A stretch of 33,153 bases of DNA from Luminiphilus sp. (GTDB lineage Bacteria > Pseudomonadota > Gammaproteobacteria > Pseudomonadales > Halieaceae): positions 354 through 33,506 of the forward strand of contig JAAXJC010000012.1 in assembly GCA_012270045.1 (NCBI GenBank), given 5' to 3'. Of the stretch, positions 1-26,892 are shown piece after piece. The position numbers and the translations under genes are program-made. The stretch's first letter is position 1; each line of letters starts with the position of its first letter. The notes beneath the pieces were generated by a model that saw only the letters and a program-made list of their open reading frames with translations, made no database searches and was not told the DNA's origin.

Positions 1-42
1 CCACTGACACTGGGAGTGATGGTGGGTATGTCCTGGGATTAA
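1..42 (+). CDS. C-terminal tail of an unidentified protein (partial)
   Basis: Reading from base 1 gives 13 hydrophobic codons (ending GVMVGMSWD) and a TAA stop at 40-42. A factor-independent terminator follows about 50 bases later, which is what the end of a real gene would look like. The tail resembles the end of a membrane helix, but too little is present to name a family. The frame is chosen because it is open to the window edge and is followed by the terminator. Confidence is limited by the length. Confidence 0.35.
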   Translation, partial: PLTLGVMVGMSWD

Positions 43-93: not shown

Positions 94-119
94 AAAGCCG
101 GCCACGCGCCGGCTTTTTT
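94..119 (+). terminator. Rho-independent terminator of the upstream gene
   Basis: A 9-bp perfect stem, AAAGCCGGC (94-102) pairing with GCCGGCTTT (108-116), has a 5-base loop and runs into a T tract. It lies downstream of the partial gene at the left edge and upstream of the S1 protease promoter region. The stem has the same sequence as the terminator at 1501-1525. Confidence 0.85.
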
Positions 120-146: not shown

Positions 147-162
147 TGTGATCTATATCACA
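147..162. promoter_or_regulatory. Perfect CRP/Vfr-type operator upstream of the S1 protease
   Basis: The sequence is TGTGATCTATATCACA, an uninterrupted TGTGA-N6-TCACA palindrome extending into flanking A/T (TTT on the right). This is the textbook binding site of the cAMP receptor protein family. It lies about 135 bp upstream of the S1 protease start, in an AT-rich stretch (160-297) that stands out from the GC-rich surroundings. A further TCACA half-site occurs at 171-175. I could not place the -35/-10 with confidence. A TACAAT at 220-225 is a possible -10 but lacks a good -35. Confidence 0.8.
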
Positions 163-297
163 TTTAGTTATCACATCTTGGCGCCCAAGTACTAAAGATT
201 CTTATTGACTGCCCAAAAGTACAATGACGTTTGGAGCGCAATAGCATTCAATATTATTGGGCATTTTCAAACAAATTAATAAATCTGGAGATTGCAC

Positions 298-1443
298 ATG
301 ACAAGGAAGACAGCAAATAGCATTAAGGGAAGGGCCGCGGTTTTGGGGGCGACAGTCATTGCACTTCTTGGGACCGGGGCAGCTAATGCCCAGGCGCCAC
401 AGGCCTCGGAGCGGGCAAAGGAAGTCGCAAGAGTCAAGGCATTCTGGACCGCCGAGAGGATAGCGGCAGCGCAGCCACGGGATTTGGTCATTGATGAGCG
501 CGGATTGGGCTATCTGCGGGGCAGCAATGGTAGGCTGATCCCTTACGGACACAGGACGCCTGCCACGCCTGAGCAGCCCCTAGCCAGGGGCGGTAACGGG
601 GGCGGCAACGGTGGTGGTGGTGGCCCTGGCTGCACTGGGTTCGAAAACGTCAAGAACGCCGCCTGGGGCAACGGAGGCACCGTTCAGACTGCCGCAGGAC
701 GGATTTTCTTTATTTTTGGAACTAGCGGATATGTCTGCTCGGGCACCTTGATCAACGATGGTGAAACCGCCAGCGATCGCAGCATTGTTCTGACCGCAGC
801 CCATTGCATGTATGACGACGTCAATAAGGTGTTCGCTGACGCGGCTATTTTCATACCCAACCAGGCAAATACATCGGGCACGGCCACGGATCAGGATTGC
901 TCGAATGATCCAGCGGGATGCTGGGTGGCAGATTTCGGCGTGGTCAGTAATGGCTGGGACGCAGCCGTGTTCCCCAACAACATCCCGTCGGATTACGGGT
1001 TTTACGCTTTGGGCACCAACTCTGATCCGGTTTACTGGGAAAACGACGGCCAGTCTGTAGCCATGGACACGGTCATCACCCCCATGGAGGTCTCGTTTGG
1101 GCCGGCAACCCAGGACATCTACACCCGGGCGCTGGGCTATTCCTACAGCGACGACCCCAATTTTATGTATTGCGGGGAGCCAGTAACAGGCAGCCAATAT
1201 GACGGATACCTGCTACCCAACTGCGGACTTTCTGGTGGATCGTCCGGCGGACCCTGGAGCCAGTCCACTGCCGTCGACCTGGGTACGGGCCCTATTATGT
1301 CGGTCAACAGTTATGGCCCATCCCGTGGCAAGAAATACATGGGTGGACCGCGCCTTGACAATACGGATGCGGCCTGTCTGTTCGAGGTTGCAAAGAATGC
1401 ACCTTCGAACCAGACAACCGGTATTGTGGGCGGCGGCTGCTAA
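298..1443 (+). CDS. Secreted trypsin/V8-like serine protease (peptidase family S1)
   Basis: A 381-residue exported endopeptidase. The ATG at 298 is preferred over an in-frame TTG at 292 because a TCTGGAG Shine-Dalgarno ends 7 bases before it. A signal peptide (positive start, hydrophobic 12-28, cleavage after ANA near residue 31) is followed by a charged pro-region of about 65 residues. A Gly/Asn-rich linker (about 98-110) then leads into the catalytic domain. The triad is visible as His169 in LTAAHC, Asp232 in SDYGFY and Ser316 in GGSSGGPW. Several cysteines suggest disulfides, as expected for a periplasmic or extracellular enzyme. Family membership is clear, the substrate is unknown. It converges on an M43 metalloprotease with the same linker type and is preceded by a perfect CRP-type site, suggesting cAMP-dependent control. 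Confidence 0.92.
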   Translation: MTRKTANSIKGRAAVLGATVIALLGTGAANAQAPQASERAKEVARVKAFWTAERIAAAQPRDLVIDERGLGYLRGSNGRLIPYGHRTPATPEQPLARGGNGGGNGGGGGPGCTGFENVKNAAWGNGGTVQTAAGRIFFIFGTSGYVCSGTLINDGETASDRSIVLTAAHCMYDDVNKVFADAAIFIPNQANTSGTATDQDCSNDPAGCWVADFGVVSNGWDAAVFPNNIPSDYGFYALGTNSDPVYWENDGQSVAMDTVITPMEVSFGPATQDIYTRALGYSYSDDPNFMYCGEPVTGSQYDGYLLPNCGLSGGSSGGPWSQSTAVDLGTGPIMSVNSYGPSRGKKYMGGPRLDNTDAACLFEVAKNAPSNQTTGIVGGGC

Positions 1444-1500
1444 GCACCGTTGATGTATGGCACCATCGATGGTTGAGGGATAACTCAAGCTCCAAACAAA

Positions 1501-1527
1501 AAAGCCGGCGCATGCCGGCTTTTTTGT
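1501..1527. terminator. Bidirectional terminator between the two secreted proteases
   Basis: The stem AAAGCCGGC (1501-1509) pairs with GCCGGCTTT (1514-1522) around a 4-base loop. An A-rich run precedes it and a T-rich run follows, so it can end transcription from both directions. It sits between the stops of two convergent protease genes (1443 and 1563). Confidence 0.88.
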
Positions 1528-1562
1528 TTGCTTGTTTCTACTGTGCGCTAACCAGGCCTACC

Positions 1563-2558
1563 CTAAGGTGAACTCCTGTAGACCAACCACTGATCCTCAG
1601 CCCGGGTAGACTGGCCCAGGGAGAAGCGGTCCATACAGCTGTCATCCGTGTAGTCCATAAAGTTATAGATGGGATCAAACCCTTCGGCCTCACAAGTGTT
1701 CCGCCCCACCGGGCAACCGTAGGCAGGGCTGGCCTCCTGAGGCGTGTCGCTGACATAGTCACCGGGGTTTGAACAACCGCCCTGGAACGTGTGATAAAGA
1801 CCCAGCCAGTGACCGATTTCATGGGTCAATGTATCGCCTTCATTGTAAGGAGCGGCCGTTCCCCCCGGCATGGACTCATCAAGGATTACGACGCCGTCCA
1901 GGCCAGGCTGGGATGAATAGGAACTGGGAAATGTGGCGTAACCCAAGATTCCGTTACTGGGGCGACAGGAATAGACGTTGAGTGTGGCTACCCCTCCCTC
2001 GCGCAGCGATGACTTCATCGAGCGCTCGCTACGTCCGTAGCAACCGGTATACCACTTCCTGTCAGCCGTTCGGGTGATCTTTAGGAGATCAAATTCATAG
2101 GGTAGCGCAGGGTTGCCGCCAATACCCGCGAAGGCGGTATTGATAACGTCGATCTGCGAGTTGATGATTGAATCTGGCACGTCACCGCTGCCTCGACCAT
2201 CGGATATCACGTGAAAAACGACGCCGATACAGGTCTTGCCGGCGCTGCACTGTGGCGTGGGTAACTCAGGGTCGGTGCCGCCGCCGCCATCATCACCGCC
2301 ACCACCGCCGTTACCGCCGCCGTTAACGTTACCGTTGTAGTTGGGCTTACCCTTGGCGGCTTGCCGGGTCGCCAATAGCGCCCGGAACTCTCTCTCAAGT
2401 TGACGGGACTCTGCCTGGCTTGGGTGTTCGGTGGCACAGCGCTTGAACGCGGCGTTATCACCGGCATTCTCAAAAGCGGAGTCGCTCTGCGCCAGCAAGG
2501 GTGCAGATAACACTGCAGCGGACAGGGTAAGAAGGTTTACTGAAGGTTTGACTTTCAT
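1563..2558 (-). CDS. Secreted zinc metalloprotease, M43 (pappalysin/cytophagalysin) family
   Basis: A 331-residue exported metalloendopeptidase. The ATG at 2558 is chosen because GGGAG lies 5 bases upstream and a signal peptide follows directly (hydrophobic 8-22). The longer open frame to 2720 would bury that signal. After a pro-region (about 24-75) comes a Gly/Asn/Asp-rich linker (about 76-94). The zinc site is HEIGHWLGLYH (His246, Glu247, His250, His256), the extended HExxHxxGxxH motif. A SDTP segment (270-273) and an NFMDY Met-turn (Met301) follow, the signature order of M43. Eight or more cysteines suggest disulfides. It is convergent with the S1 protease and shares its terminator, and a second perfect CRP-type palindrome lies upstream. 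Physiological substrate unknown. Confidence 0.93.
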   Translation of the reverse strand: MKVKPSVNLLTLSAAVLSAPLLAQSDSAFENAGDNAAFKRCATEHPSQAESRQLEREFRALLATRQAAKGKPNYNGNVNGGGNGGGGGDDGGGGTDPELPTPQCSAGKTCIGVVFHVISDGRGSGDVPDSIINSQIDVINTAFAGIGGNPALPYEFDLLKITRTADRKWYTGCYGRSERSMKSSLREGGVATLNVYSCRPSNGILGYATFPSSYSSQPGLDGVVILDESMPGGTAAPYNEGDTLTHEIGHWLGLYHTFQGGCSNPGDYVSDTPQEASPAYGCPVGRNTCEAEGFDPIYNFMDYTDDSCMDRFSLGQSTRAEDQWLVYRSSP

Positions 2559-2699
2559 GGTAGCTCCCGAGCCTAGATGGGAGCCTTTGGCGTGGCCCAA
2601 TACGGCTCGGCGCCAACACAAGAGTTCCCAACGTTGAGTTTGCTCCCTGCGATACCGCCGCTGATCACACAGCCTGCTTCCTACTTGCTCTACCGTAAA

Positions 2700-2715
2700 T
2701 GTGATTTGTGTCACA
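2700..2715. promoter_or_regulatory. Perfect CRP/Vfr-type operator upstream of the M43 protease
   Basis: The sequence is TGTGATTTGTGTCACA, again matching TGTGA-N6-TCACA exactly, with A/T on the left flank. Its centre lies about 150 bp upstream of the minus-strand M43 start, close to the 143-bp offset of the matching site before the S1 protease. The aminotransferase start is 200 bp away on the other side, so control of that gene is possible but less likely. The rest of 2559-2911 (353 bp) holds the two leader regions, with a TACAAT (2864-2869) that may be the -10 of the aminotransferase promoter. Confidence 0.78.
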
Positions 2716-2911: not shown

Positions 2912-4279
2912 GTGAACGCAACACTGGATACCAACACACTCAAGAAGCTCGATCAGGACCACCATTTCCACCCGTTTACGGATTTCCATGACTATGCCAA
3001 GCACGGCGGCCGCATTATCAGCCGGGCCGAGCACATCTACATTTACGACTCCGATGGCAACCAGATCCAGGACGGCATGTCCGGTCTGTGGTGCTGCAAC
3101 CTGGGCTACAGCATGGACGCCATCAAGGACGCCGTCGCCGCCCAGCTCAACGAACTGCCCTTTTACAACAACTTCTTCAAATGCTCGAACCAGCCCGCGG
3201 TGGAACTGGCCAGCAAGCTGAGCGAGGTCACCCCGGCCGGATTCAACCACGCCTTTTTCACCAATTCGGGTTCCGAGGCCAACGACACCCAGCTGAAACT
3301 GGTGCATCGCTACTTCGATCTGCTGGGCAAGCCCAACAAGAAACTGATCATCAGCCGCAAGAATGCCTACCACGGCTCCACCATTGCCGCGAGTTCCCTG
3401 GGCGGTATGTCGGCCATGCACGAGCAGACCATGGGCCTCAACTACGTGCACCACATCAACCAGCCCCACTGGTTTGAATGCGGCGGTGACATGGACGAGG
3501 CCAGCTTCGGGGTGCAGGTGGCCCGGGAACTTGAAGCCAAAATTGATGAGCTGGGTGAGGACAATGTGGCGGCGTTCATCGCCGAACCCGTGCAGGGTGC
3601 CGGCGGTGTCATCATCCCCCCGGACAGCTACTGGCCCGAGGTCCGACGTATTCTGGAAGAACGGGACATCCTGTTCATCTCCGACGAGGTCATCTGCGGC
3701 TTCGGCCGCACCGGCCGCTGGTTTGGCTGCGAGACCTACGGCATGGAGCCCGACCTGATCACCTTCGCCAAGGCGGTCACCAACGGCTACATGCCCCTGG
3801 GTGGCAGCATGATCAACGACAAGATGGCCGAGGTGCTGTTGGGCAGTGGCGGCGAGTTCGCCCACGGCCTGACCTACTCGGGCCACCCGGCCTCCTGCGC
3901 CGCGGGTCTGGCGACACTGGATATCTATCGGAATACCGGGATTATTGAAGACGCCGATGCCAATCTCGCGCCCCACTTTGCCGCCCGGTTGGCGACCCTT
4001 GCAGACCATCCCATTGTCGGCCAGGTGCGGGTCAAGGGCATGTTTGCCGCCGCGGAGCTGGTACGGGACAAGGGTAGCCGGGAGCGGCTGGCACCGGAAT
4101 CAGCGGGAGCGGTGTACTGCCGGGACCGCGCCATTGAAGACGGCCTGATGGTGCGCCAGACCGGCGATGCCATGATCATGGCGCCGCCTTTCGTGACCAC
4201 AGCTGCAGAGATCGACACCCTGGTGGACAAGCTCAGCAAGGCCCTGGACCAAACCGCCGCCCATTACGGAGTAAGTTAA
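2912..4279 (+). CDS. Class III PLP-dependent aminotransferase (putrescine/omega-amino acid:pyruvate type)
   Basis: A 455-residue cytoplasmic aminotransferase of fold type I. The GTG start has a strong GAGGGGGAG Shine-Dalgarno 6 bases upstream. The cofactor site is visible: SGSEAND (119-125) for phosphate binding, the ISDEV aspartate (Asp258) and the Schiff-base Lys287 in FAKAVTNGY. The GLWCC segment near residue 60 is typical of SpuC-like putrescine/omega-amino acid:pyruvate transaminases, and length matches that group (about 450). Known members move an amino group from a polyamine, beta-alanine or similar amine to pyruvate. The exact substrate cannot be set from sequence, and no polyamine genes lie nearby. 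It is probably monocistronic, since 176 bp separate it from the next gene. Confidence 0.88.
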   Translation: MNATLDTNTLKKLDQDHHFHPFTDFHDYAKHGGRIISRAEHIYIYDSDGNQIQDGMSGLWCCNLGYSMDAIKDAVAAQLNELPFYNNFFKCSNQPAVELASKLSEVTPAGFNHAFFTNSGSEANDTQLKLVHRYFDLLGKPNKKLIISRKNAYHGSTIAASSLGGMSAMHEQTMGLNYVHHINQPHWFECGGDMDEASFGVQVARELEAKIDELGEDNVAAFIAEPVQGAGGVIIPPDSYWPEVRRILEERDILFISDEVICGFGRTGRWFGCETYGMEPDLITFAKAVTNGYMPLGGSMINDKMAEVLLGSGGEFAHGLTYSGHPASCAAGLATLDIYRNTGIIEDADANLAPHFAARLATLADHPIVGQVRVKGMFAAAELVRDKGSRERLAPESAGAVYCRDRAIEDGLMVRQTGDAMIMAPPFVTTAAEIDTLVDKLSKALDQTAAHYGVS

Positions 4280-11692: not shown

Positions 11693-14593
11693 ATGAAGCC
11701 CCCGCTCAACAAGCTGTTACTGGCCGTCATCGCCATTGGACTGGCGGGATGCCGTCTGGAAGTGGCCGTACCCGAAGGGGGGCGCGTCGAGTCAGCCTCG
11801 GGCCGGTACGACTGCGATGAGCTGTTCATCTGTTCGGGGGAAATAGATGACGGTGAATTTGAAGAGACCTTTACCGCAGTGGCTGACCCGGGATTCCGGT
11901 TTGTCAGATGGTCAGAAACCGAAAGTACGGTCTGTGAAGGCGCTGAGGGGAGCTGCACCCTGCGCATGCTCGACCTGCCCCCAACCCTGCGGCGCAGCCT
12001 GCTCAACTCTGACATGGTGGCCAGGCTGGTACCGGTGTTTGAGGAAACTGATGCACCCGCAGCCGTCTCGGTCACCGGCACCATCGGCGTACTGGAGGGA
12101 ACGGTCATCGATGCCGATACCAACAATCCCGAAAATACCTTCAACGCCAGCAGCGGCCTCAGCTCCAACAACAGCCCCAGCGAGGCCCAGCAACTTCCCA
12201 ACCCCGGGGCAGCAGGGGGCTACATTAACGAAGCCGGTGCCGGGGAGCCCGGGGAAACCCAGACCGCTGGCGACCCCGAGGACTTCTACCAGATCCAGGC
12301 CGAGGCCGGGGATGTGGTGACCCTTTTTGCCTCGGATTACACCGACGCCGACCTCGACCTGTATCTATACGACGAGGAAGGGGTGGAGACAGACTTCAGC
12401 ATTGGGACCGGGGAAATAGAACAGTTGACCATTCCCTCGTCTGGTACCTGGTATGTGAACCCTTCCGTGTTTTCAGGGGCCGCCAACTATGTGCTGACGG
12501 TGGGCAAAGGGGGGAGCGTCGGGAGCAGCACTACCGAACTTGTTCCCGGTGAGGCGCTGGTGACGTGGCAGGCAGAGACCATCCTGCAGCGCGACGTAGC
12601 CGACCGGCAACGAGACGACCTGACCCACCGCTTCGCCCTGCAGGAAGCGGGGGGCGGTATCGCCCGGGCACGACGCCTGGTTAGCAGCACTGTGGCCGTG
12701 TCTGCCCCGGGTATTGATGACAACCCGCGTCTGCTACAGCGGCAGGCAGCGCTGAGCGTTGATCCGACACGCCTGGCGCGCTGGCGTACGCTGATGATGA
12801 TTAAACAGCTGTCCCGGGAACCCGGGGTTGCCATCGCTGAGCCCAACTGGCGGGTCAGGGCACAGGCGACCACCAATGACCCCTTCCTGGATTTTATGTG
12901 GCACTACGACCAGATCAGCCTGCCCGCCGCCTGGGACACCACCACCGGCGACCCCGGCGTCACGGTGGCGGTGGTGGATACCGGCATCATCAGTGAACAC
13001 CCGGACATACAGGGCCAGCTCATCGATGGCTATGATTTTATTTCCGACCCGGTCAGCGCCGGAGACGGAGATGGTATCGACCCCGATCCCACAGACGTGG
13101 GTGAGGGTAGTAACCCCCTGCGTTCCGGGGATTTCCACGGCCTGCATGTGGCGGGTACCGTCGGCGCGGCGGGCAACAACAATACGGGAATTGCCGGGGT
13201 CGCCTATGGTTCCCGGGTAATGCCCCTGCGTGTCCTGGACGCGGATGGCCTGGGTACCACCTATGACATCCTGCAGGCCGTGCGCTACGCCGCTGGCCTG
13301 AGCAACGATGCCGGCATTGTCCCCGCCGACACCGCGGACATTATTAACCTGAGCCTCGGTGGTGCTGGATTCAGTCAAACCGCTGAAAATCTGTACACCA
13401 CGGTAGCCAGCCTGGGCATTTTGGTGACCGCTGCCAGCGGCAATGCCGGTGCCAGCACGGTCGACTACCCCGGGGGCTATACCGGGGTGTTCGCGGTGGG
13501 CGCTACGGACGCGCGCAACAGCATTACCGGCTACTCCAATACCGGCGAGGAGCTGGATCTTGTGGCCCCCGGCGGCAGACTTGGCGCTGACGCCAGCGGC
13601 GATGGGCGCCCCGATGGCATCTTCAGCACCTACTACGAGAATGGCGCGCCCACCTATACCGACCTCGAGGGCACCAGCATGGCGACACCCCATGTGGCGG
13701 GAGTCTTTGCGCTGATGAAGTCGGTCAATGATGACCTGTCTGCGGACACGGTGAACGAGCTTTTACAGGCAGAACTGCTGACCGATGATCTGGGTGATCC
13801 CGGCCGGGATGACGTCTACGGTTGGGGCATCATCAACGCCCGCAAAGCGGTTACCGCGGCCCTGTCGGCGGCCGGGGGCAGCATCGATATACCGCCACGG
13901 CTGGGCGCCTCTTCGTCGACCCTCAATTTTGGCAGTTCGCTGACGGTGGCCAACCTGACCCTGAGCAACCAGGGCGGGGGCGACCTCTCGGTGACTGGCG
14001 TGGTTAATAACGTCGACTGGCTGACCGTGACTGAAGCCAATACCAACGCCAGCGGCCTGGGCAGTTGGCGCATCAGCGTGAGCCGCCAGGGCCTGGACGA
14101 GGGCACATACCGCACGGAGCTGGTGTTTAATTCCACCGCCGGGGACGCCTCAGTCACCATTGAAGTCCGGGTGTCCGATGAAGCGGGGGGCGATGTCGGT
14201 GTGGTTTATGTGCTGTTTATCGAGGCCGATTCCCAGCAGATCTGGCAGGCCGCCACGGCACTCAACAATGACCTGAGCTATGTTGACCAGAACTACAGCA
14301 TCACCACCAATTACCTGCTGAGCCCGGATTTCACAGAAGTGGATCGGCTGCCCGCAGGCCGCTACGAGATTTGGGCCGGCACCGACAACGACAACGATCT
14401 CTTCATCTGCGATGCCGGCGAAACCTGTGGTGCCTGGCCCAGCCTGGATTTCCCTGAGTTCCTCGAAATTAACGATGACCTGAACGGCCTGGATTTTTCC
14501 AGCAACTACCAGGTCAGCCTGCCCGATGTCAGCGCCGCCAGCCTGAGGCCCACTACCACGGATCGTTTTGCCCGACCCAGGAGGTCACGATAA
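11693..14593 (+). CDS. Large S8 subtilisin-family serine protease, lipoprotein
   Basis: 966 residues. A lipobox (LAGC, Cys20) ends the signal peptide, so the mature protein should be lipidated and envelope- or surface-anchored. Domains in order: a beta-rich repeat domain with FTAVADPGFRFVRW (about 60-73), a pre-peptidase C-terminal (PPC)-like domain (about 190-270), a pro-region (about 282-395), the S8 catalytic domain (about 405-725), a beta-sandwich (about 735-823) and a further C-terminal beta domain with a cysteine pair. The triad is Asp429 (VVDTGI), His482 (FHGLHVAGT, where most relatives have HGTH) and Ser662 (GTSMATPHVAG), with oxyanion Asn584 (ASGN). PPC domains usually sit after the catalytic domain, so the N-terminal place is unusual. 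The stop overlaps the next start. Confidence 0.92.
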   Translation: MKPPLNKLLLAVIAIGLAGCRLEVAVPEGGRVESASGRYDCDELFICSGEIDDGEFEETFTAVADPGFRFVRWSETESTVCEGAEGSCTLRMLDLPPTLRRSLLNSDMVARLVPVFEETDAPAAVSVTGTIGVLEGTVIDADTNNPENTFNASSGLSSNNSPSEAQQLPNPGAAGGYINEAGAGEPGETQTAGDPEDFYQIQAEAGDVVTLFASDYTDADLDLYLYDEEGVETDFSIGTGEIEQLTIPSSGTWYVNPSVFSGAANYVLTVGKGGSVGSSTTELVPGEALVTWQAETILQRDVADRQRDDLTHRFALQEAGGGIARARRLVSSTVAVSAPGIDDNPRLLQRQAALSVDPTRLARWRTLMMIKQLSREPGVAIAEPNWRVRAQATTNDPFLDFMWHYDQISLPAAWDTTTGDPGVTVAVVDTGIISEHPDIQGQLIDGYDFISDPVSAGDGDGIDPDPTDVGEGSNPLRSGDFHGLHVAGTVGAAGNNNTGIAGVAYGSRVMPLRVLDADGLGTTYDILQAVRYAAGLSNDAGIVPADTADIINLSLGGAGFSQTAENLYTTVASLGILVTAASGNAGASTVDYPGGYTGVFAVGATDARNSITGYSNTGEELDLVAPGGRLGADASGDGRPDGIFSTYYENGAPTYTDLEGTSMATPHVAGVFALMKSVNDDLSADTVNELLQAELLTDDLGDPGRDDVYGWGIINARKAVTAALSAAGGSIDIPPRLGASSSTLNFGSSLTVANLTLSNQGGGDLSVTGVVNNVDWLTVTEANTNASGLGSWRISVSRQGLDEGTYRTELVFNSTAGDASVTIEVRVSDEAGGDVGVVYVLFIEADSQQIWQAATALNNDLSYVDQNYSITTNYLLSPDFTEVDRLPAGRYEIWAGTDNDNDLFICDAGETCGAWPSLDFPEFLEINDDLNGLDFSSNYQVSLPDVSAASLRPTTTDRFARPRRSR

Positions 14594-25866: not shown

Positions 25867-26892
25867 ATGGCATTCGAGCATTACATCCCAGCCCTCTCCA
25901 CCCTGTTTGTAGGCAGTCTGGCGCTGCTGGTGCTGAGTCGGCTGGCACGCAGGGGGAAGCCCAGCGACGGGCGTACACTGGCGTTCCAGCTCATTTTCTG
26001 GGCCGCCGGCCTCGCCATGCTGGTGGCGCTGATCGTGGCCCTGCCCCTGGACACAGCCGTCCGGGGCCAGATTCTCAGCCTTCTGGGCGTGGTATTGACC
26101 GCTGTTATTGCCCTGTCCTCAACAACTTTTGTCTCCAATGCCATGGCGGGCATCATGTTGCAGGCAACCCGTCCCTTCAAACCAGGTGATTTCATACTGG
26201 TGAATGGCGTCTTCGGGCGAGTGAGCAGGCGCTCCCTGGTCAGCACCCGAATCCAAACGGAAACCCGCGACTTTACCAATCTGCCCAACCTACTGTTGGT
26301 TACACAGCCAGTGACGGTCCAGCACCGGGACGGGACCATCATCCAGGCCGATGTCTCCCTTGGATATGACGTGCACCACAATACCGTGGAGAGGGAACTG
26401 CTGGCATCCGCCGAATCGGCGGGACTGAAAGACCCCTACGTACTGGTGGTGGAGCTGCTTGACCACGCGGTGGTGTACCGGGCTGCCGGCTTCCTGGAAG
26501 ACGTGGTTAATCCGCTCACGGCCCGCAGCCAATTGCGCCGGAAAATGCTGGACGGACTGCATGGCGCCGGTCTGGAAATTGCCTCACCCAGCATCGTCGC
26601 CCAGCGACAACAACCCGGCGATACCCAGACCTTACCAACGGGGTCGGCCCTGCCCACCGCCAGCAGTGGCGAGGAGGCACCGGAAGCAAAGATTTTCGAC
26701 AGCGCCAATGCAGCAGCGTCCGAGGAGGCTTTACGAGAAGAGATTGCCGAGCTACAGGAAACCATCGCCAGCCAGCAGGAGGCCATCAAGGGCCTTGAGG
26801 ATGAAGAACGCGACAAGGCGGAGTGGGCGCTGGAAAGATTACAACGCAAACTCGAGTGGCTGGAATCCCGAAACGCGGAGACAACTGACTAG
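25867..26892 (+). CDS. Small mechanosensitive channel, MscS family, with coiled-coil tail
   Basis: 341 residues. Three hydrophobic helices (about 5-24, 38-62, 66-98) precede the beta domain. The pore helix TM3 continues into SNAMAGIMLQATRPFKPGDFILVNGVFGRV, which matches the MscS hallmark. It opens under hypo-osmotic shock to release solutes. The cytoplasmic cage region (about 130-245) is present but there is no long N-terminal periplasmic extension. Residues about 278-335 form a highly charged Glu/Lys/Gln-rich coiled coil (EEALREEIAELQETIASQQEAIK), which is uncommon in MscS proteins. Its stop is 3 bases from the stop of the convergent small gene. Confidence 0.85.
   Translation: MAFEHYIPALSTLFVGSLALLVLSRLARRGKPSDGRTLAFQLIFWAAGLAMLVALIVALPLDTAVRGQILSLLGVVLTAVIALSSTTFVSNAMAGIMLQATRPFKPGDFILVNGVFGRVSRRSLVSTRIQTETRDFTNLPNLLLVTQPVTVQHRDGTIIQADVSLGYDVHHNTVERELLASAESAGLKDPYVLVVELLDHAVVYRAAGFLEDVVNPLTARSQLRRKMLDGLHGAGLEIASPSIVAQRQQPGDTQTLPTGSALPTASSGEEAPEAKIFDSANAAASEEALREEIAELQETIASQQEAIKGLEDEERDKAEWALERLQRKLEWLESRNAETTD

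Follow-up and report, generated by a model that had tools for sequence, protein, structure and literature searches.

Analysis of a 33,153-base stretch of the Luminiphilus sp. genome G000 (the window; C156:354-33506) revealed two exact CRP-type palindromes, each lying upstream of one member of a convergent pair of genes for secreted proteases of the S1 and M43 types (Table 1). The palindromes are probably CRP-family sites, read most likely by the protein P0007, and would act as upstream activator sites for secreted peptidases and other exported proteins. G000 comprises 3,356,165 bases in 225 contigs and was studied within a genus set of 57 genomes that includes it; throughout, the letters G, C, L and P denote genomes, contigs of G000, fetched loci and proteins, respectively.

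Two exact palindromes at the protease locus

A scan of the window for TGTGA-N6-TCACA returned exact matches at 147-162 and 2700-2715 and nowhere else, both of them intergenic, in agreement with the sequence-only reading of this DNA, which had also correctly described the S1 and M43 genes as convergent. Of the distances that it gave from palindrome centre to start codon, 143 bp was reproduced for S1, whereas the 150 bp claimed for M43 was measured as 149 bp; the start codons behind all such distances were picked by hand. A first-order Markov model built on the dinucleotides of the window puts the expected number of exact sites at 0.026 for a window and 2.63 for the genome. The Poisson probability of finding at least two in a given window is 3.3e-4, or ∼0.03 across 101 windows. 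With up to two mismatches allowed, the window held one further match, at 26365, as compared with 11.4 in shuffled sequences, and relaxed matches are thus rarer here than chance would give.

A genome-wide motif scan had been proposed as a check. G000 holds the exact pattern at 8 places against the 2.63 expected (P 0.006 for at least 8), and the reversed control pattern at 0 against 1.4 expected. However, the 5 exact places outside the protease locus are not significant when taken alone (P 0.13), and consequently the excess in the genome lies mainly at the protease locus. Moreover, the 8 sites are not all independent, because one (C156:121-136) is a duplicate copy, 379 bp leftward. The relaxed pattern TGTGATNNNNATCACA was found with up to two mismatches at 73 places in G000, of which 50 were listed, including all 11 with at most one mismatch, and its reversed control at 11 places. 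Coding DNA tends to avoid TAG and, because the reversed pattern contains this triplet, these counts were excluded from the evidence for enrichment.

Sites before other exported proteins in G000 and across the genus

Further sites of G000 lie before genes for exported proteins and at a recurring distance from them. One-mismatch sites are found 146 bp before a secreted S8 subtilase (C12, family by Pfam) and, again with 146 bp to the ATG, before a gene that runs rightward off the end of C19. On its other side, the C19 site is 226 bp from the divergent gene of an M20 peptidase that carries a signal peptide, and a second one-mismatch site is located 84 bp further from M20. On C139, an exact site lies between divergent genes, at 140 bp from the start for a secreted fasciclin-domain protein and at 154 bp from that for a globin. 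In all, five promoters of G000 (S1, M43, S8, the C19 rightward gene and fasciclin) share a centre-to-start distance of 140-149 bp; were nine sites spread uniformly over 20-300 bp, five of the nine would fall within 9 bp with P 0.0006. Elsewhere in the genus the distances are widely spread.

Exact sites also precede a TonB receptor gene (C86), a sigma-54-activator-type gene (C106) and a small gene between WYL and DUF429 genes (C166). The small gene has an exact site in G334, G009, G327 and G319 as well, that is, in five species (L014, L196, L200, L141 and L212), and is a promising candidate for CRP control conserved across species. The sites on C68 (rod-binding protein), C181 (enolase) and C107 (by the simpler gene caller only) fall within genes and for this reason are probably due to chance. 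The family names of several targets were first assigned by eye and afterwards checked against Pfam.

Across the genus, the palindromes are enriched in promoters, as 38 of 75 exact sites are intergenic, compared with 18.2% (1416/7763) at positions 500-1400 bp away (P 2e-10). These 75 are the sites, out of 82, that were placed relative to genes by an ad hoc codon-usage script whose calls are crude, with seven left out (three in G002, two in G347 and one each in G346 and G007). By a self-made and equally crude rule, which misses some leader-like N termini (e.g. L227), signal peptides were predicted for 14 of 42 genes whose start lies no more than 300 bp downstream of a site, as against 21 of 148 others (odds ratio 3.0, P 0.006); the figure without G000 was 10 of 33 (P 0.03).

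Subtilase genes recur among the targets. G334 carries an exact site 148 bp (184 bp by the automatic caller) before an S8 gene whose product is 89% identical to that of C12 and, on its other side, 280 bp before an M20 homologue (66% over 41 aligned residues). An exact site in G007 precedes an S8 homologue of 48% identity. Six genomes gave an S8 match at E 1e-30, and the site check covered all but the weakest two, G322 and G004. In G010, exact sites lie before a met-zincin (DUF4953/DUF5117) and before an alkaline phosphatase. For fasciclin, no further orthologue was found in the 57 genomes at E 1e-15. The expectation that the site would be found before other secreted hydrolase genes was therefore upheld in part, and many of the targets are not proteases.

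A second box near the CRP-type sites

A second element, with the consensus CTGCCCAAARGTMSG, is present with 0-1 mismatch in the S1, S8 and C19 promoters, 41-54 bp after the centre of the CRP site (209-223 of the window, C12:2681-2693, C19:4237-4249 and C156:184-196). This level of match was unreached in 1000 base shuffles of each promoter. The exact string TGCCCAAARGTMS occurs at six places in G000 (reversed control 0), four of them beside CRP-type sites; of the other two, one falls inside recA and one follows a sodium:solute symporter gene and has its counterpart in G334. Of the four occurrences in G334 (control 0), one is at the symporter, one is inside a gene, and the other two precede S8 and a CotH-domain gene that bears a leader. 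Those in G009 number three (control 2): two precede genes, one of which encodes a CotH protein, and the third is 39 bp away from the CRP palindrome before an S8-like gene, where the palindrome lies between the box and the ATG, 32 bp from the start. The remaining 54 genomes gave 18 occurrences against 37 for the reversed controls, and there the box is no more frequent than chance. The CotH and symporter boxes have no CRP-type site (at most two mismatches) closer than 200 bp, and a literature search by the letters of the box gave no bacterial description by title among the matches listed. The box could mark where a second regulator binds, or it could be a promoter element of an unusual type.

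Candidate readers of the palindromes

A profile search identified three PF00027 proteins in G000. One of these, P0007 (C137), scores 284.8 bits against the NCBIfam CRP equivalog NF008732, above the cut-off of 266, and the CRP homologue on which the proposal depended is thus present. Among solved structures, the best match of P0007 is Vfr (E 1.4e-65, 224 bits), with E. coli CRP (∼1e-60, ∼208 bits) and 3iwz (1e-52, 182 bits) below it. When aligned to Vfr, P0007 keeps the GE...RS motif and the TT of the C-helix, residues that contact cyclic AMP (cAMP). The putative source of cAMP in G000 is a class III cyclase with an additional receiver domain, the single PF00211 match (99.2 bits). Orthologues of P0007, sought among the matches of a search with P0008 (below), were found in 28 of the 57 genomes (60-100% identity), in four of which (G325, G330, G341 and G001) the match contains stops. 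At least one intergenic site is present in 12 of the 28 genomes with P0007 as compared with 4 of the 29 without (P 0.015), a co-occurrence that weakly favours P0007 as the reader; the intergenic and coding counts behind the association were typed by hand from the table of site placements.

The palindromes might instead be read by a second CRP-like protein, P0008 (C201), whose gene is divergent from that of the response-regulator class III cyclase, the two starting 149 bp apart (L030, C201:22500-26500). P0008 keeps the SREM..R recognition helix and a GE...RSA cassette, and its best solved matches are the CRP/FNR-family regulators 3h3u and 3d0s, which we take to be actinobacterial proteins. It is also present in G334, where five intergenic sites but no CRP orthologue were found. 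However, P0008 reaches only 133.8 bits against the CRP cut-off, and it occurs in 45 of the 57 genomes at 80% identity or more, yet the intergenic sites are concentrated where there is a CRP orthologue. We consider it rather unlikely, though worth keeping in view, that P0008 is the reader.

Less probable still is repression by a CRP-family protein bound at these sites, or its response to another ligand, in the manner of Lysobacter Clp with cyclic di-GMP (c-di-GMP), so that the programme would not be activated by cAMP. The loop of P0007 that follows GEMGLF is shortened, and its helix reads REMAGR, as that of Clp reportedly does, where Vfr has REMVGR. In addition, T replaces the S of G000 at the RS pair in 22 of the 24 relatives whose cassette was compared, the Clp-like 3iwz is a strong match to P0007, and the close-set palindrome of G009, on the ATG side of its box, would also suit this explanation. 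Against it, the scores of P0007 to Vfr and CRP exceed that to 3iwz, and a class III cyclase is encoded.

The site at 2700-2715 could, in principle, serve the aminotransferase gene rather than M43, which would make the pairing of proteases accidental. It lies 204 bp before the aminotransferase start, and in one relative, L066, this gene is preceded at 97 bp by a site with one mismatch. L066 is, however, the only one among 80 aminotransferase loci with a site of at most one mismatch within 500 bp upstream (four loci hold <500 bp), and the distance to M43 fits that seen in the other promoters. Control of the aminotransferase by this site is accordingly regarded as very unlikely.

Observations that weigh against activation by CRP

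The assignment of the palindromes to CRP draws on P0007, the cyclase, the sites before secreted proteins and the intergenic enrichment; a number of observations weigh against it. The sites are not specific to proteases, and their targets are wider, including GMP synthase, a GGDEF protein, the small gene by WYL/DUF429 and a TonB receptor. The third protease of the window, an S8 lipoprotein-like subtilase, has no CRP-type site that could be found, and the promoter scan showed no sigma-70-like promoter near either palindrome. The second box is missing from the M43 and fasciclin promoters (6 and 5 mismatches, respectively).

Conservation is also uneven. Relatives of S1 occur in 7 of 293 genomes of the order, G000 included, and of the seven loci from the six other genomes, six have no site (at most two mismatches, 300 bp before the frame); the weakest relative, L130, has a two-mismatch site overlapping its first ATG. 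No site is found upstream of the M43 gene of G002, nor within 500 bp upstream of the 68%-identical S8 of G319 at up to two mismatches. In the 57 genomes together, exact sites number 82 and the reversed pattern 63.

The association with P0007 depends on how it is counted. Per site, 29 of 50 exact sites are intergenic in genomes with P0007 and 9 of 25 in the others (P 0.06). The latter becomes 4 of 20 (P 0.004) without G334; the test gives P 0.15 without G000 and P 0.015 without both. Per genome, restriction to those at least 85% complete leaves 6 of 17 against 2 of 11 (P 0.30). G334 itself (80% complete) has five intergenic sites, and no P0007 orthologue was found in it.

That the palindromes are functionless products of chance, as the near-equal genus totals and the missing conservation before S1 and M43 relatives would allow if taken alone, is nevertheless judged highly improbable in view of the intergenic enrichment, the spacing and the recurrence before subtilase genes in three genomes.

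Organization and repetition of the protease locus

Table 1. Features of the window (positions count from its first base; centre distances are in bp to the start codon)
Feature	Position	Strand	Remarks
TonB-dependent receptor gene, 3' end	1..42	+	PLTLGVMVGMSWD, then stop; C148 copy 88% identical, with the full gene and the same C terminus
Terminator-like hairpin with T run, receptor/S1 gap	94..119	+	Read from sequence; absent from the hairpin scan listing
Exact CRP-type palindrome TGTGATCTATATCACA	147..162	none	Centre 143 bp before S1 ATG (298)
Second box CTGCCCAAAAGTACA	209..223	+	Consensus CTGCCCAAARGTMSG, 1 mismatch; begins 54 bp after CRP-site centre
S1-type serine protease, secreted	298..1443	+	Signal peptide, LTAAHC, GGSSGGP
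Terminator-like hairpin between convergent protease genes	1493..1530	none	Hairpin scan
M43 (pappalysin-type) metalloprotease, secreted	1563..2558	-	HEIGHWLGLYH (HExxHxxGxxH)
Exact CRP-type palindrome TGTGATTTGTGTCACA	2700..2715	none	Centre 149 bp before M43 ATG (2558, minus strand), 204 bp before divergent aminotransferase
Class III aminotransferase	2912..4279	+	Divergent from M43; mostly without site in relatives
S8 subtilase, secreted, lipoprotein-like signal	11693-14593		Third protease of the window; starts 21 bp after zinc-dehydrogenase gene

The S1 protein comprises 381 residues and matches the serine protease 3wy8 in the PDB (E 6e-6); its score against Pfam Trypsin_2 is 17.1 bits, under the cut-off of 27.6, with the His and Ser motifs present. 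The M43 protein is recognized by Pfam Peptidase_M43 (PF05572; 60.9 bits, cut-off 23, E 1.7e-16) and by the mirolysin/ulilysin structures (E 5e-25). The aminotransferase is 91% identical to a protein from the contig of a Luminiphilus metagenome-assembled genome, and its other close matches are from Luminiphilus and Halieaceae.

Immediately to the left of the window, C156:1-340 repeats, at 84% identity, the whole series from the receptor end through terminator, palindrome and box to the start of S1. The S1 copy is partial, with a stop at codon 21 followed by a gap of N, and its palindrome (121-136) is the third of C156 and sits outside the window. Between the two S1 promoter copies, the site is identical at 16/16 positions and the box at 13/13, as against 84% overall. 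The receptor end occurs a third time at the edge of C148 (L027), behind a complete receptor gene; this copy shares 88% identity with the window and 84% with the second one. Given three receptor-end copies and the N gap, the receptor/S1 region is probably repeated, at least in part, and broken in the assembly.

The slot between the receptor and the aminotransferase is variable. In L054, L058 and L091 only ∼170-240 bp separate the end of the receptor gene from the aminotransferase, too little to hold proteases, and in G002 (L028/L049) the slot holds M43 only, in a reading frame split in two. G009 (L228) has a receptor (by Pfam) with the same end (by eye), followed by the hairpin that is also shared with the C156:1-340 copy, and then a different, S8-like gene; the 77 known residues of its product match the S8 homologue of G007 (67% over 46) and have no Pfam match. 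From these contents across relatives, the slot seems to receive secreted proteases, and it is possible that it acts as a site at which they are swapped.

Taken together with the second box, this arrangement raises the tentative idea that some Luminiphilus possess a two-input exoenzyme regulon, controlled by a CRP site and by a regulator reading CTGCCCAAARGTMSG. Secreted proteases of families unrelated to each other (S1, S8 and the divergent neighbour of M20) would have this composite promoter in common, and it would be swapped in at one slot behind the same TonB receptor. We hold this fuller scheme to be doubtful.

Discussion

As the likely role of the palindromes, we propose that a CRP-family protein, P0007 in complex with cAMP, would bind ∼145 bp before the start codons. 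The level of cAMP would rise upon carbon or nutrient limitation, and the bound protein would then aid polymerase at the promoters of S1 and M43, of the C12 subtilase and fasciclin, and of the gene that diverges from M20, activating rather than repressing them. Where the box follows the CRP-site centre, as before S1, S8 and the C19 gene, it could supply a second input. The sequence-only reading, which had seen in the two palindromes one cAMP-dependent programme of extracellular protein degradation, is in this way supported in part. Control by CRP is likely, but the targets extend beyond proteases, conservation is missing before S1 and M43 relatives and the third protease is siteless.

Related systems are known in other bacteria. 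Clp of Lysobacter and the xanthomonads is said to have a REMAGR-type helix and extracellular enzyme targets, and Vfr of Pseudomonas aeruginosa is reportedly linked to protease production, according to the title of a study; G000 has its palindromes directly in protease promoters. Vfr, the closest solved relative of P0007, is the CRP homologue of P. aeruginosa and is described as usually activated by cAMP (PMC11139211). The same source describes Clp of Lysobacter, which is likewise a CRP-like factor, as an effector of c-di-GMP (PMC11139211), whereas P0007 scores higher to Vfr and CRP and G000 encodes a class III cyclase. In Vibrio mimicus, also a gammaproteobacterium, deletion of crp lowers extracellular protease and gelatinase activity and ties a CRP-family regulator to these activities and to metalloproteinase genes (PMC10854923). 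The link in V. mimicus thus comes from deletion (PMC10854923), whereas that in G000 is known from sites alone and concerns the protease families S1, M43 and S8. A literature search on CRP with extracellular protease, Luminiphilus and Halieaceae gave nothing on this regulon in the titles and abstract beginnings of the matches listed. With the parallels in Vibrio and Pseudomonas, the proposed mechanism would be of a known kind in a new lineage, and the second box is the less ordinary part.

Bacteria of the OM60/NOR5 clade are common in coastal surface water. If it is true that cAMP-CRP switches their exoproteases, the two palindromes offer a direct test of how nutrient state is coupled to protein breakdown in the clade; the second box, for its part, points to a further regulator.

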